From positions 30,242,335-30,306,334 of the forward strand of contig NC_088788.1 of assembly GCF_949628265.1 (NCBI RefSeq): a DNA stretch of 64,000 nt, given 5' to 3'. The DNA is from Cloeon dipterum. Taxonomy: Eukaryota > Arthropoda > Insecta > Ephemeroptera > Baetidae. Under the pieces are notes generated by a model that saw only the letters and a program-made list of their open reading frames with translations, had not been told where the DNA came from and made no database searches. Each line of letters begins with the position of its first letter. Position 1 is the first letter of the stretch. Of this stretch, positions 47,050 to 59,356 are shown piece by piece. Position numbers and translations under genes: made by a program.

Positions 47050-48984
47050 TCAACCGTTCTGTGGCTTGTTCGGCAATACCTCGCTTTTCGGTATTTTGAC
47101 CATTTCGAAGTTTTTTGTGTCGTCTTGTTCGCGTTTTCGGTTAATGCGCCACTTGCTACTAAAGTTCCCAAGATTTCGTAAAAAATCTACTGTGTTCTTG
47201 ATAATGGGTTTTAGTTTCAAAGGAATTTCAAGTTTTTCCTTAATCCTGTCACTGGGAATAGTCGTATCACCGTTGTCAACGTGATTTTCGCGCTCATTCA
47301 AGTTATTAGTTTCTTGCTTAACTGCTGCTACAGTATCTACTACACATTTTCCGGGCAATGTGATGTTATTTTCTGCTGTACTGATTACCGCTTTTTTCTG
47401 CGGTTCGAACTTATTTACAACTACGCCATTTTCTATAGCAGTGTCTTTTGCAATTTGAGTTTCAGCCTTTTGCGCGTTTTTTAAATTTTTACGTTCAATT
47501 TTCCCTTGTGAATTGATCTTCTTTGGAGTTTTCTTTTTCTCAACTTGAGATCTTCCTATCTCATTTTTCACCTGAGCTGATTGGAATGACTCTAGTTGTC
47601 CAGTTATTCCGACATTCATGGTTTCCGCCAATGTACATGTATTTTCTGGAGACCTTTTTTCGGACATTAATGCACTTTGAGCTACAAATCCGGTTGTGTG
47701 TGTAACTTCTCTCTTTGGTTCGTGCAAATTCACTACTGGCTTTTGGCTTTCGTCTTGAAAATATGACAAATTGAAATACTCGCTTGAACTTGATTTTCGC
47801 ACTGATGAGAATGGTATTTGGTTAATCGCGTGCTTTTGTTGTTGCGAATTACCCTTTTCCGAGGGAACTGAAGACTCGGCTTCTTTGGAGGAAATGGAAT
47901 TTACAATATTTACATGAGTTCGTTCCCTGGCGAGGTTTTGATTTTGCGTGATTGACGATACCCCTTTTTGATTCTTCTTTTCTGGGTTTGCTGCTGATTT
48001 GGGTGCATAAACCGTCATGTTATGGAGTACCTTTCGCGTTTGAGTCGAGTGCGCGTTCTGGTGAAAAATCGCGTTTGGTGGATTGCCGCATGTCGTTGCC
48101 GGCTGAGATGTTATATGGCCGTGCGTGCGCGAAGAGTAATTTTGTCTCCTATTTCCGCGATGCGCATCTCCTACGCGTGATTTGCATTGTTTTCTAATGT
48201 GTCCACTGCGGTTGCATTTGAAACAAATTTTGGGGACTCGGTATGGGAAAAATTGCTGTTGTTCTGACTGGGGTGCCGTTTGGTAGGCAGGTGCGAAATC
48301 TGGTGGTGGGTGTATTTGGTACGACGGGTACTCGGCTGGGTATTGGTAAATTGGGAAAACATGCTGTGGTTGCGGCTGAGGAAGGATTTCCACGAACTGT
48401 TGTTGTATAGGTAGCGGGGTTTGCATGAGTACATAATTAGTATGAGGTGAAGTTAACACGTATGTGTTTTGTGCGGTGCAAGGTGCCACTTGAAGAGTGC
48501 GCAATTGCTCTTCTTTTTGTTGCAACTGTTTGAGGAGGAGTAAAATTAGTTCATCTTTTTCCTCCTTTTGTGTTTTTGATTTTTTCTTACGGTCTCGGCT
48601 GACTCTAAAGGTGTAATCTGTCTCAAAATTATCGGTAGATTGATCGCTATCTGAGAAAGGGGAAGAATCTCGCGGCTCGCTATGTTTTCTCGGGTTATTA
48701 ACGTAGTACGAGTGTTTGAAATCATTGTGCCAATTTTTCAAATCGTTCAAAAGTTCATCAAGTCCCTTATTTACATTTAATGGGTCACATTCCCACTGCA
48801 AATGCCAGTTTTTTGCGTGTCCTTGTAATTTGCCTGCAAGAACATCAAGCGTTTCCTCTTCTGTCATTCCAGAGAGTTTCCTAATTACGTGTAAGTCCTG
48901 TAGGAATAATTCAACGTCCTCTGTACTTTCACCGAAAAATTCATCGAGCAACCGGCGTCCGATTTGCATAGATTTACCGTCCAT
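47050..48984 (-). CDS. gag: Gag-like polyprotein of the LTR retrotransposon, 644 aa
   Basis: Structural protein expected to assemble the particle and bind element RNA. Residues about 12-90 resemble a retrotransposon gag/capsid domain (EFFGES..DVELFLQDL, LAGKLQGHAKNWHLQWE). A charged, probably coiled-coil stretch follows (about 135-165), then a Pro/Gln/Tyr-rich region (170-250). A single CCHC zinc knuckle spans residues 254-267 (CFKCNRSGHIRKQC, C-x2-C-x4-H-x4-C). The remaining roughly 375 residues are basic and Ser/Asn/Lys-rich; I see no protease D-T/S-G motif. The ATG at 48984 is about 280 bp from the 5' LTR, and the frame is open to a TGA at 47050-47052 with no break. The long tail after the zinc knuckle is unusual and no pol frame follows. 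Confidence 0.85.
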   Translation of the reverse strand: MDGKSMQIGRRLLDEFFGESTEDVELFLQDLHVIRKLSGMTEEETLDVLAGKLQGHAKNWHLQWECDPLNVNKGLDELLNDLKNWHNDFKHSYYVNNPRKHSEPRDSSPFSDSDQSTDNFETDYTFRVSRDRKKKSKTQKEEKDELILLLLKQLQQKEEQLRTLQVAPCTAQNTYVLTSPHTNYVLMQTPLPIQQQFVEILPQPQPQHVFPIYQYPAEYPSYQIHPPPDFAPAYQTAPQSEQQQFFPYRVPKICFKCNRSGHIRKQCKSRVGDAHRGNRRQNYSSRTHGHITSQPATTCGNPPNAIFHQNAHSTQTRKVLHNMTVYAPKSAANPEKKNQKGVSSITQNQNLARERTHVNIVNSISSKEAESSVPSEKGNSQQQKHAINQIPFSSVRKSSSSEYFNLSYFQDESQKPVVNLHEPKREVTHTTGFVAQSALMSEKRSPENTCTLAETMNVGITGQLESFQSAQVKNEIGRSQVEKKKTPKKINSQGKIERKNLKNAQKAETQIAKDTAIENGVVVNKFEPQKKAVISTAENNITLPGKCVVDTVAAVKQETNNLNERENHVDNGDTTIPSDRIKEKLEIPLKLKPIIKNTVDFLRNLGNFSSKWRINRKREQDDTKNFEMVKIPKSEVLPNKPQNG

Positions 48985-54483: not shown

Positions 54484-55614
54484 ATGCCGAGGGGCTTTCT
54501 AGTCAAGCGGCAGCCGGAGCAGCCAGACCCTGGCTACCACAGCGACCACTCGGACGACACGCCACACGACCTGAGCAAGAAGTCCAGCAGCCACCAGGTA
54601 CTACACCCGACGGCGGTGATCCACCCGTACCCGCCGCCGGGTCTGTTCGCGCCCCATCTACACCCGATGGTGGTAGAGCGGCTCCAACACCATTTTTACC
54701 CTCCGAGCGAACTGTACCCTGAGTACTACCACCTATACCAGCCGCTGCGGCCGGTGCAGCCGCCCGTGCAGCCGGCCGGCCTGCTGCTCGACCTGACCAT
54801 CAAGGCAAGCACACCCATCACCCCTCCGGCCACCCCTTCGCCGGTCAGCGCCGCACTCACCACTAACAGCCACCACCACCAGCAGCAGCAACAGCAGGGT
54901 GGAAACAGCGGTGCCAAGCGCAAGTTGGATACCCCCGGCAAGGCGGCCGCGGCGGCCAGCCCCAGCAAGAAGCAGAAGGCGGCCACCAGACGGCTGCACT
55001 TTGACGAGGACAAGAGCTCGCCGGTGTCCGGCACCATCATCAAGGAGCTAAACGCCGACGACCCGCCCCTGGTGGTGCGCAAGGGTGACATCGACCCCGC
55101 GTTTAACGTGGTCGAGGTCACCGAGGAGGCTAAGGCCGAGCTGGCAAAGATCGAGAACCGCATCGGCGACTACATCTGCAAGCTGTGCTGCGAAATGTAC
55201 GACGACGCCTTCATGCTGGCGCAGCACCGCTGCTCGCGGATCGTCCACGTCGAGTACCGGTGTCCCGAGTGCGACAAGGTCTTCAACTGTCCGGCCAACC
55301 TGGCGTCGCACCGGCGGTGGCACAAGCCACGCCAGCCTCCCTCCGGCGAGCCCGTCGACCTGGCCAAGAAGGCTTCCAGCTCTGACAGCTCCTCAGAGCC
55401 GGAAGACTCGTCCGAGCAGCAGTTCCCCTGTGATGTGTGCCACAAGCGCTTCCGGCGGCAGGCGTACCTGAGGAAGCACCAGGCCACACACGGCCCGGCC
55501 GCCACCGCCACCGCGTCCTCCGTGCCAGGCCAGACGTCCCTCTGCGCCGCCGTGCCCCACCTTTCGGCCTTCCAGCCGCTCATCAAGCCCGAGACGATGG
55601 TGCTGGCCGACTGA
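54484..55614 (+). CDS. nerfin-1: Nerfin-1/INSM1-family zinc-finger transcription factor, single exon, 376 aa
   Basis: Expected to be a nuclear repressor controlling neuronal differentiation and axon guidance. It starts MPRGFLVKR, the SNAG co-repressor-recruiting motif of the INSM/GFI family, which fixes the start at 54484; no in-frame ATG lies in the 33 bp of open frame upstream. A Pro/His/Tyr-rich region, an H/Q run (residues 130-138) and KRKLD follow. The family-specific block VVRKGDIDPAFNVVEVTEEA (198-217) leads into three fingers: C232/C235/H248/H255 (atypical), C260/C263/H276/H280 and C316/C319/H332/H336. YRCPECDKVFNCPANLASHR is nearly invariant in the family. The gene is intronless and GC-rich against AT-rich surroundings. 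The length and three-finger count suit insect nerfin-1 rather than vertebrate INSM1. Regulation is probably strongly post-transcriptional (see the 3' UTR array). Confidence 0.95.
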   Translation: MPRGFLVKRQPEQPDPGYHSDHSDDTPHDLSKKSSSHQVLHPTAVIHPYPPPGLFAPHLHPMVVERLQHHFYPPSELYPEYYHLYQPLRPVQPPVQPAGLLLDLTIKASTPITPPATPSPVSAALTTNSHHHQQQQQQGGNSGAKRKLDTPGKAAAAASPSKKQKAATRRLHFDEDKSSPVSGTIIKELNADDPPLVVRKGDIDPAFNVVEVTEEAKAELAKIENRIGDYICKLCCEMYDDAFMLAQHRCSRIVHVEYRCPECDKVFNCPANLASHRRWHKPRQPPSGEPVDLAKKASSSDSSSEPEDSSEQQFPCDVCHKRFRRQAYLRKHQATHGPAATATASSVPGQTSLCAAVPHLSAFQPLIKPETMVLAD

Positions 55615-55698
55615 CACAGGCACCACTACTGGACTGCCTTCTGGCACCACCACCACCACCAACAGCAGCAGCAGCAACAACAGAAGAATTTGCTTTGA
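55615..55698 (+). other. Candidate stop-codon readthrough extension of nerfin-1
   Basis: The stop is TGA followed by C, a leaky context in insects. The frame stays open for 27 further codons to the TGA at 55696-55698 and encodes a His/Gln-rich tail (five His, then seven Gln) resembling the H/Q run inside the protein. A chance CAN repeat in the UTR is the alternative. Confidence 0.3.
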
Positions 55699-55739
55699 GG
55701 TGAAGTCTTGGTTTTACAATCTCCCACGAAAACATTTGC

Positions 55740-57035
55740 CTAGTCTGTCCTCTAGTCATGTATAATTTTAAGAAAAGGGCCAGTTGCTAGTCACTTTTAC
55801 GTAACCGATGCTAGTCGCTGTATTGTTTAAAAAGATGAGTCTCTCTTTACCTGATGCTAGTCAAAGCTTTAAGTCAATTAGTTACGATTAAGGTTTGCTT
55901 TTTTCAAAGTTTTATTTGTTTTGAAAATTTTCTAGTCATTTGTTGAAGTCAGTTTTGAAGAAAGCTTTCTTAAGATCTCGAAATGTAGTAGTATATTCGC
56001 GTGAATCTAGTCAGTTTTCTTATATTAGGACCCGATCTCAAATATAGAGTATATTAGTCAGTCGATTCTAGTCTCAAGATCTCGTTTCTCGAACGATCTC
56101 ACTCAAAATTCAGTCATTGAAATTCCCCTAGTCCCGCTTCTAGTGTAATCGTCACATCAGCCATAATGATCTCGTACCATGAAAATATGTAACAGCTCTT
56201 TAGTCATTCAAATTAGTCATTTGAATTTTCTAGTCAATGAAGTTTTATCTCAACTAGTCAAGCAATTATAAAATTTAATCTTTATTTTTCATTCATTCTA
56301 GTCCAAAACGAAGTAAATTTTAACCTGATAAAATATTTCGCTGATGTGCCAAATTTCAATCGAATTTATCGACCAGCGTCGAAATCTAGTCCTAAATTTT
56401 AGTATTTTATCTCGCGGGAGCGCCTGTGCCTCGTCCGCGATGCCACCTGCGGCACGGCTGAGCGCAACTGGTTGCATACTTTCCGCGCTCGCAAGCGTTT
56501 CTCCGCAGTTGTTGCTTTATAGTAAAGGATTATTTGGAAAAAATCGATCCGTGCCAGAAAGAGGCGACCAAAGAGTTACAAAATGAATATATTTAAAGTT
56601 TGCTTTATAATTGAAATGTTGCGCGTCTAGTCGACAATTTTAGTTATAAATCTATTCAAGTGTAATTAAAGTAAGTGTATTAATTTTCAGTTTATCTTAT
56701 TTTGAGTTCAGTGGTTTTGCCGGTTTTCGCTGCAAAAGCGAAAACAGAAAACCGTGGATCTAAGCTGCCATGACATTAATTTTAATTATCATGAGAGGTG
56801 GTAAAGTTAGTTACCATGAAGCTACACGCGCATCTTAGTAGATTGCTGTCAAGTGTAAATTGTCAGTTTGATTCCTGCAGTGTTAAGTACTTAAACTACA
56901 CGCGAGCCATGTCCGGTCATTGGATGTGCCAATTGTCTTTCAAACTAGTCACGTAGGAATATTATGCATAGGATTTTTTAATTGCAATTTCGACATTTAT
57001 TTTCTCCGTTCTCCAATCGATGAGTTCTCTAGTCA
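55740..57035 (+). promoter_or_regulatory. Array of 16 miR-279-family target sites in the nerfin-1 3' UTR
   Basis: The insect miR-279/286/996 family has seed GACUAGA, so targets carry UCUAGUC(A). The UTR has 16 CTAGTC cores. Full 8-mers TCTAGTCA start at 55751, 55931, 56006, 56229 and 57028. 7-mer-m8 sites start at 56067, 56297, 56395 and 56626. 7-mer-A1 sites start at 55787, 55857, 56254 and 56945. 6-mers start at 55740, 55811 and 56128. Three further TTAGTCA copies (56054, 56200, 56213) differ by a G:U wobble. In Drosophila, miR-279 is known to repress nerfin-1. A given 6-mer is expected about 0.3 times in 1.3 kb. Confidence 0.85.
56723..56745 (+). other. Strong hairpin in the nerfin-1 3' UTR
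   Basis: GTTTTCGCT (56723-56731) pairs perfectly with AGCGAAAAC (56737-56745) around loop GCAAA. A nearby GAAAACCG can compete for pairing with CGGTTTTC. Confidence 0.7.
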
Positions 57036-57066
57036 GAAAACTTCAGTCAGTTGAGATCAGCCAAAG

Positions 57067-57093
57067 TACCAGAAATTTTCAGACTTTCTGGTA
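57067..57093 (+). other. Second hairpin in the nerfin-1 3' UTR
   Basis: TACCAGAAA (57067-57075) pairs perfectly with TTTCTGGTA (57085-57093). GATCAGC and GCTGATC flank it as a possible outer stem. It lies just after the last miR-279-type site. Confidence 0.6.
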
Positions 57094-57773
57094 TTTACAA
57101 ATCGAGAGCTGATCAACGATCTCAGTCTGATGTGCGTAAATGTCTAAGAATCTATTTGTAAATTAATGGTTAGTTATTCAATATAAAATAAGGCCCAAAA
57201 AGGAATTGCCGTCACAGATTTTGTTGTAAAATATAATATGTCACCCCCACCAAAACGCATTGTGTAATATACTGTAACTCTTTACCATTCGTGGCATTTG
57301 TGCTAAACAGAAGTGTTATTGTTGTAAATTGAAAGTAAAATATTTGTGAAGGCTGTATAAAAAGGCAAGAAAAACCAAGACTTCTCCTCGAAAATGTGTT
57401 GTAAGTTTAACGCATTGTTCATCGCATATAATTAAAAAGATTGTGCTAAGTGTAAATACAAAAAAATTCCCACTATTATCCTTAATGTACTAAAATGTGT
57501 AGGGACTCTACAACCTCGTAATTTCATTTCTGTATATCTGCTGACAACGATTGCAATTGAATTGCTTTATATCACACCGTCTTTTGATTTTAACTTTAAT
57601 ATTGTACTGCGTATGAATTTTCGATACTTTAATAAGGTTGTGTTGGACATTGTTTTCGTGCTGCATTTTACAAAAAGAAAAGATTGCACATATTGTTCAC
57701 CTTTATATTTATTACGAAAAAATTTTGTGTGCTATCTCTTCCGCTTTTTAACAATTTTTGTGTTCGTAGAGAA

Positions 57774-57779
57774 AATAAA
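57774..57779 (+). terminator. Likely distal poly(A) signal of nerfin-1
   Basis: AATAAA, the first canonical signal I find after the stop. It implies a 3' UTR of about 2.2 kb. ATTAAA near 57434 is a possible proximal variant. Confidence 0.5.
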
Positions 57780-59356
57780 ATGAACATTCTTCATGTAATT
57801 AAGAATTCTTTAATTTATTTTCATCGCAACTAATACCCTTTCTAGCAATACAACAACGACATAAACTTAATACCCTCGAAAATTAATTTCCTGGGAAATA
57901 TAAAGAAAAATATAATCAGGATCATTATTATATTATAAATAATTTGACCATACGCGAATGCATTTATTACATAAATAAAAAAATTAAATATTTCAAAATT
58001 AATACCAGAGAGAGCCTGTTCTGGAAAGTTTACGCAATTCCAAAGGCTTACGATCACAACAGAAAAAATAATTACAATCCTAGTTTACAAGAAAATTTAT
58101 TTCAAAAACGCTTTTAGGAAGAGAGAGATCGATGTGAAATATATTTTTAAGATTTTTAAGATTTTTAAAAATAAAAGTCGAAAAATACTCAAGCTCGCAA
58201 CGTAACAACCGCCGCTAGTGTAAGCACAATATGCACTCGAATTTTAGCTACTTCGTCCGACTGTCGGCAGGGGGAGACTACGATGGACCACTGCGGTATA
58301 CATACGCCACATACACCGTGTAGATGGCACTGCCTGTTAGCTACATCTAGCTACATCCACGCTCACATGCTTCGACACATCGACACTGACGCCACCACCA
58401 CGGACACACTCCATAGTGACGCACTGGCATGACTCGTGTTCTATCATAAATCGCTCGCGATAAAATGTAAACATCACCGCCTTTGTTTTTATCAATATCA
58501 ACAACGTGACGAGGGAAACAAGCCTGGGACGGATCGCATTCGAAACTAAAATTCAGTATTCGCTATTGGAGTTAGCGCCCATCGAATACTGTGCTACATA
58601 TTTGTAAGTTTCGCCATTCAATTGATGGAAAAGCTACAGTTCTCGCCGAATTTACCGTTAATGGTAAAGTTACAGTTTCTGCCGGGTTATACACATCTCG
58701 CGAGAAGTTCTTATGAGAATCACATGTTAAAGTAGGGGTGGTAAAAACTGTAACTCGGCGGCGAAAATTGTAATTTTGCCATACTTAATTATGTATCTTC
58801 GTGTAGTATTCTGAATGGGGTAGGAGGGTTCTTTTGATCTATTTGCACCATATTTAGGTGCGAACACAGTTTTCTTATGTCGGAAACAAGGAAATCAAAA
58901 TAATGTACGAAAATTAATATATTTTGAAACCGATAAAAATAGTTTTGGAAGAGGTCGGTAAACAATGTACTGCTATAGACAAATATAAATAATGCATAAA
59001 TTGTGAACACACGACGTGTCTGTTTTCTGCTTTGAGAAAGTTCTAATTTTGGTTTCGTGAGCAACCACAGTATCCTGAGGGCTGTCGATTACCTTGTTTT
59101 TGCAGAGCACATTATTTTGTTTGTTATGGTCTTGATTCAGAACATGGCAACTCTAAATATGAGACTCCTTAAGTTATCTATGTACTAAAATTCTCGACAT
59201 CGATGATCAAGATTCTAACGCAACTAACTCTCTCTCAATCTGAGCGTCTGCTGAAAAGGCGCGTAAAACATTTATTTTTTCATGAGCCCTGTTCTGTTTC
59301 AGATTTCAGTGACAGTTAGAGGATGATCTAATCACCCTTCTTGAGTTGATATAAAT
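57780..59356. other. Intergenic region and probable 5' region of the SANTA-domain gene
   Basis: AT-rich to about 58.2 kb, then mixed. It holds a CTCF-like motif (58317-58331), the palindrome TCTCGCGAGA (58696-58705) and three copies of a TTACARTTTYCGCCG-like motif (58634-58648, 58670-58684 and, on minus, 58759-58773). A 9-bp inverted pair CAGTATTCG/CGAATACTG lies near 58553-58591. A TTTCAG acceptor-like site near 59297-59302 may join a 5' UTR exon to the start codon region. Confidence 0.45.
58317..58331 (+). promoter_or_regulatory. CTCF-like motif between nerfin-1 and the SANTA gene
   Basis: CGTGTAGATGGCACT matches 13 of 15 positions of CCASYAGRKGGCRSY. Binding is inference. Confidence 0.3.

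Follow-up and report, generated by a model that had tools for sequence, protein, structure and literature searches.

A dense array of predicted miR-279-family sites in the putative nerfin-1 3' untranslated region of the mayfly Cloeon dipterum

Introduction

The regulation of nerfin-1 by miRNAs of the miR-279 family is best described for Drosophila. Fly nerfin-1 was the top-scoring gene among all single-miRNA predictions made with PicTar in 2005, and two anchor sites together with 'many additional' scattered miR-286/279 sites were reported for it (PMC1183519). Another method yielded three sites each for mir-279 and mir-286 (PMC1180435). Loss of miR-279/996 results in massive derepression of nerfin-1 in adult heads (PMC4456407), which agrees with the statement in a first-pass annotation of the sequence analysed here that miR-279 is known to repress this gene in Drosophila. 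In the presence of miR-279, a reporter carrying the fly nerfin-1 3' UTR decays via CCR4-NOT; its half-life of 31 min is extended to 182 min by catalytically inactive POP2 (PMC3510486). Among isolates from the fly larval brain, those of glia have high levels of miR-279/996 and those of neuroblasts lower yet still substantial ones, while almost none can be detected in neurons (PMC12064045).

Conserved predicted miR-279 sites have been described for Tribolium nerfin-1 (PMC6961396). This beetle has five miR-279 members (a–e) with the sequence GACUAG, and mir-279e is clustered with mir-2944 (PMC4691753). Five miR-279 members are also listed for Daphnia magna (PMC6828783).

The miR-279/nerfin-1 circuit and the presence of many sites in fly nerfin-1 were, accordingly, known beforehand. 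Mayflies are among the oldest lineages of winged insects. Here, we describe the nerfin-1 gene of the mayfly Cloeon dipterum, located in a 64-kb stretch of genomic DNA (hereafter, the window), and its predicted regulation by miR-279-family miRNAs. As far as searches of the open-access literature reach, the following features are new: the array of sites in a mayfly, a cluster of predicted miR-279 genes only together with a total of ten seed-intact hairpins, and a predicted stem enclosing the array. No paper combining Cloeon dipterum and nerfin was found in this literature.

Results

The nerfin-1 gene and its putative 3' UTR

The gene upstream of the array is a single open frame of 376 amino acids (54484..55614, plus strand; ATG at 54484). 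The encoded protein begins with MPRGFLVKR, which we take to be a SNAG-like motif, followed by C2H2 zinc fingers of the INSM type, and it matches the Pfam profile zf-C2H2. Its best solved relative is INSM1 (E 2.4e-32). The protein shares 99% identity with a Cloeon dipterum protein, 87% with 'insulinoma-associated protein 1b-like' of Neocloeon triangulifer, and 59% with a relative from Ephemera danica over 90% of its length. By these identities, the genome almost certainly belongs to Cloeon dipterum or to a species very close to it. The N-terminal motif, the type of zinc fingers and the best relatives, named INSM1, are those of a nerfin-1/INSM1 orthologue. Judged by its encoded protein, the gene is nerfin-1/INSM1, and the profile match, the INSM1 relative and the Cloeon dipterum match confirm the name given to it in the first-pass annotation.

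The likely poly(A) signal is the first AATAAA past the stop codon (57774..57779, plus strand), from which the end of the 3' UTR was placed. The putative 3' UTR (55615..57800, plus strand) is ~2.2 kb long. Since the first AATAAA is located at 57774, the array lies within this region, and all 16 sites are probably part of the 3' UTR. The words ATTAAA occur in it at 56665 and 57431. Use of the proximal one (56665) would retain 14 sites and remove two. The first-pass annotation had asked whether the transcript ends upstream of the array; this end was judged here by poly(A) signals.

Elsewhere in the window, a single open frame of 644 amino acids is present on the minus strand (47050-48984). It has a CCHC zinc knuckle scoring just under the Pfam cut-off and appears gag-like by eye. 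The Rfam scan of the 64-kb window at gathering scores gave no matches.

Array of miR-279-family seed matches

The seed match CTAGTC occurs 16 times between 55740 and 57035, always in the sense orientation (plus strand); no copy of GACTAG, its antisense counterpart, is present in 55614-57800. The words start at 55740, 55752, 55787, 55811, 55857, 55932, 56007, 56068, 56128, 56230, 56254, 56298, 56386, 56627, 56945, and 57029, with start-to-start spacings of 12, 35, 24, 46, 75, 75, 61, 60, 102, 24, 44, 88, 241, 318, and 84 nt. Five of these are parts of 8-mer sites (55751..55758, 55931..55938, 56006..56013, 56229..56236, and 57028..57035), four of 7mer-m8 sites (56067..56073, 56297..56303, 56385..56391, and 56626..56632), and four of 7mer-A1 sites (55787..55793, 55857..55863, 56254..56260, and 56945..56951); the remaining three are weak 6-mers (55740..55745, 55811..55816, and 56128..56133). 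As in canonical targets, 13 of the 16 seed matches are 7- or 8-mers above background in a presumed 3' UTR. The variant TTAGTCA is present at 56054, 56200, and 56213. Our recount reproduced exactly the number and orientation of the sites given in the first-pass annotation, as well as its breakdown by site type and its three TTAGTCA variants.

One more 8-mer (54498..54505, plus strand), the 17th miR-279 seed match, is located in the nerfin-1 coding sequence. It lies within codons F5-L6-V7-K8 of the SNAG-like motif, spelled TTT CTA GTC AAG, and had been overlooked earlier. The chance that FLVK is spelled as a miR-279 8-mer was calculated by hand as ~2.6% from codon counts that include the codons of this 8-mer itself, so that the spelling is suggestive only.

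Comparison with background sequences

In dinucleotide shuffles of 55740-57035 (n=2000), CTAGTC occurred 0.36 times on average and three times at most, versus 16 observed. It is the most over-represented 6-mer in the 3' UTR among those occurring at least four times. The forward strand of the genome (10 contigs, 190.1 Mb, with the window on contig 3) contains 12,246 copies; this rate corresponds to 0.083 expected per 1.3 kb and a Poisson probability of ~2e-31 for 16 copies. For the five 8-mers, the genome rate of TCTAGTCA (1,481 on the forward strand) gives P ~8e-13. Genome-wide, CTAGTC is ~2.5-fold rarer than the reversed control word (12,246 versus 30,038, forward strand). The array stands out more because the word is generally scarce in this genome.

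Homeobox genes served as a further background. Thirty loci, cut from 101 homeodomain-exon matches with overlapping loci kept, contained 0.048 CTAGTC per 1,296 bases on both strands and at most one in any segment of this length; loci that had been selected because of the motif or a miRNA, or because they were ends of contigs, were left out. Within the window, the maximum per 1,296 bases was two on the plus strand outside nerfin-1 and one on the whole minus strand. The word is, in other words, not equally common elsewhere, which was a check proposed in the first-pass annotation. Two snail-family genes, considered as candidate escargot-like targets, showed no array in the stretches from the finger end downstream (one CTAGTC in 3.5 kb and two in 3.0 kb, respectively).

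TTAGTCA was mildly enriched in the 3' UTR (3 versus 0.39 expected, P 0.012). One-mismatch forms of the 8-mer were not in excess in this region (2 versus 0.87, P 0.21). Decayed one-mismatch sites were rejected as a sign of site turnover, as there was no excess apart from TTAGTCA.

Pairing, accessibility and sites for other miRNAs

The sites showed no excess of supplementary pairing with miRNA 3' ends (sum 73 versus 67.7, P 0.29), and the energies of site–miRNA duplexes were no better than those of controls (P 0.32). We therefore rejected supplementary 3' pairing as the organising principle of the array. The exception is the 8-mer at 57028, which has the longest extra 3' pairing of all sites, namely 8 nt (GATGAGTT) to a cluster miRNA with a duplex energy of -23.7 kcal/mol. 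Predicted accessibility of the 16 sites was not raised (P 0.19). Neither raised accessibility nor supplementary 3' pairing thus characterizes the array; in canonical targets, both features are supportive and not required.

The 3' UTR also contains six copies of GATCTC, which we take to be the bantam seed match (55974..57123, plus strand; starts at 55974, 56034, 56078, 56095, 56168, and 57118), versus 0.32-0.36 in shuffles of the 3' UTR. One of the six has the m8 match and three have the A1. A single strong bantam locus with TGAGATCA is present in the genome (C3:20342304-20342386). Words for miR-9/79 are weakly raised: GCTTTA (4 versus 0.93) and CCAAAG (2 versus 0.68). The presence of bantam and miR-9/79-like words suggests combinatorial control of nerfin-1.

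Inverted repeat around the array

All 16 miR-279 sites and all six bantam words are enclosed by an inverted repeat with arms of 22 nt that are 91% complementary to each other (55694..55715 and 57371..57392, plus strand). The duplex energy is -31.7 kcal/mol. Scored among gapless repeats whose arms are separated by 300 nt or more, this repeat reached 16; the maximum in 200 shuffles of the 3' UTR was 14, and none of the 200 was as good. The minimum-energy fold of the whole 3' UTR includes 21 of the 22 stem pairs. The 14-base core of the repeat has five occurrences in the genome (three for the reversed control), two of which are the arms themselves. As the core is found only five times, the inverted repeat is not a mobile one.

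With the stem predicted by this folding, the array would form part of a single loop, and the end at the stop codon would come nearer to the poly(A) end. Possible roles are packaging, binding of a double-strand-binding protein, or poly(A) proximity.

The miR-279 family in the genome

The search of the genome with the Rfam mir-279 model gave 13 matches, six of them above the gathering score. One match is the antisense of a hairpin already counted, which leaves at least 12 distinct loci; this number is a lower bound, as the search scored the best candidates only. The 3' arm begins with TGACTAGA in 10 of the 12 loci. Of these seed-intact hairpins, six belong to one cluster, one is located at C2:2.04 Mb, two are separated by 0.2 kb on C3, and one is found on C5. 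The pattern TGACTAGANNNNNNCTCATC was found in nine places of the genome, all of them inside mir-279 hairpins, and the reversed control in none. The first-pass annotation had called for a miRNA with the seed GACUAGA in this species, and the ten predicted hairpins would supply it.

The cluster contains eight hairpins in 5.5 kb (C2:27064735-27070191, minus strand). Six of them have an intact seed, and the other two carry the altered seeds GACAAGA and CACTAGA. A search of 15 kb at the cluster revealed no miRNA family of Rfam other than mir-279, and a Pfam search of one ORF adjoining it found nothing. In a DNA search of the same genome, one cluster copy matched itself, the seven other members and the copy at C2:2.04 Mb (78-92% identical), but not the copies on C3 and C5. 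The cluster therefore seems to have expanded locally.

The fold of the hairpins is preserved: a double change is seen in at least one of the 12 sequences at 12 of the 26 consensus pairs, with some pairs broken in one to three copies. Judged from these predicted loci, the mir-279 family is visibly expanded in the genome of Cloeon dipterum.

At C2:2.04 Mb, the intact hairpin is located beside two apparently decayed ones, one of which keeps TGACTAGA in a poor fold, the other being seen by eye. This place looks like a duplicated block of the cluster. Doubled TTAGG telomere repeats were present in none of the 13 stretches from contig ends.

Discussion

Predicted targeting and alternative explanations

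We consider it highly probable (roughly 85%) that miRNAs of the miR-279 family target the 3' UTR of mayfly nerfin-1 at multiple sites, as predicted from the number, type and orientation of the seed matches and from the matching hairpins. The same words could, however, serve as a DNA element, such as a transcription factor or enhancer site, or be bound by an RNA-binding protein, the seed match being a coincidence. Short words clustered in this way can indeed be enhancer or RNA–protein motifs. A DNA element would not need to have all 16 copies in the sense orientation, downstream of the stop codon and ahead of the first AATAAA, as is the case here. Also, if words belonging to CTAGTC or to the CAC repeat close to the stop codon are excluded, the next enriched word is the bantam match, i.e. 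another miRNA seed. We regard such a coincidence as very unlikely. A similarly low probability is assigned to the array being a by-product of local duplication, a birth of repeats that was later partly used or left unused. Five of the 16 sites do occur in imperfect direct repeats (14-28 nt), which form three pairs, namely 56386/56627 (28 nt, 75%), 55811/55857 (15 nt, 87%), and 55787/55857 (14 nt, 86%), so that part of the array may stem from local duplication. The other 11 sites, however, fall outside the six families of direct repeats that were reported, and the one-mismatch remnants that duplication might have left are not in excess. Tandem Repeats Finder revealed only the CAC run and a 13-nt unit in 2.2 copies (55934-55960). 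Since no tandem array accounts for the sites, a tandem-repeat origin of the whole array is not supported.

The first-pass annotation had also raised the idea of a natural sponge, i.e. a transcript that mainly soaks up miR-279-family miRNAs and thereby frees their other targets. One 3' UTR with many sites for one seed family does resemble the layout of a sponge, but nothing beyond the number of sites speaks in favour of this idea. The transcript is not mostly non-coding; it carries an intact coding sequence for a transcription factor with close relatives in other insects. As a sponge, it would have to titrate the products of ten predicted miRNA genes by means of an mRNA whose own destruction the miRNA brings about, and the known phenotype in flies is repression of nerfin-1. 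We regard the sponge explanation as very unlikely. The intact coding sequence and the ten miRNA genes favour repression in cis, that is, targeting of nerfin-1 itself.

Proposed mechanism

Both the repression of nerfin-1 and the expression of miR-279 in the mayfly are inferred, and the cell logic outlined below is carried over from Drosophila by analogy. In progenitors, glia, and non-neural cells that express miR-279-family miRNAs, several Argonaute complexes would assemble on one nerfin-1 transcript and recruit the deadenylation machinery, by which Nerfin-1 would be kept off. Neurons with low miR-279 would translate nerfin-1. Bantam, and perhaps miR-9/79, may add repression via their own sites. 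The enlarged miR-279 family could represent dosage on the opposite side of the circuit, and sixteen sites combined with ten miRNA genes may make the switch steep where little of the miRNA is present.

A more far-reaching reading is that of a co-amplified switch, in which 16 sites (17 with the one in the coding sequence) and ten hairpins, with their tandem cluster of mir-279 only, were multiplied together, the array is held in a loop closed by the 22-nt stem between the beginning of the 3' UTR and the part preceding the poly(A) signal, and the core of the circuit predates the split between mayflies and other winged insects. We offer this as a tentative proposal that may well prove incorrect. 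If true, neuronal differentiation would be under the control of a miRNA switch that is packaged by RNA structure.

Significance

Cloeon is in experimental use (PMC11597413), and the dosage logic of many sites versus many miRNA genes is therefore directly testable. The circuit described for flies and beetles appears to be very old, and to be strongly reinforced in the mayfly. An array in a mayfly, together with a matching miRNA with many predicted copies, suggests an age of hundreds of millions of years for one of the best-studied miRNA switches of insects.

Comparison with known systems

Sponges of miRNAs, such as the circular RNA CDR1as for miR-7, are non-coding and decay-resistant. Mayfly nerfin-1 shares with CDR1as the dense sites for one seed but differs in that its array is located in a presumed mRNA 3' UTR behind an intact transcription factor gene. 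A second multi-site system is hid/bantam of Drosophila, in which one miRNA likewise has several sites in a cell-fate gene, five of them conserved anchor sites (PMC1183519); the number of sites is smaller than in mayfly nerfin-1, and both the miRNA and the gene are different. Tribolium nerfin-1 with miR-279a-e resembles the mayfly in having predicted sites and a GACUAG family, but the beetle cluster includes mir-2944, whereas only mir-279 matches were obtained from the 15-kb cluster region of the mayfly. For Drosophila, three loci with this seed are named (PMC4456407), versus ten seed-intact hairpins in Cloeon dipterum; the enclosing inverted repeat was searched for in the mayfly only. The system formed by Drosophila nerfin-1 with miR-279, miR-996, and miR-286 shares with that of the mayfly an orthologous target, the same seed family, and many sites per 3' UTR.
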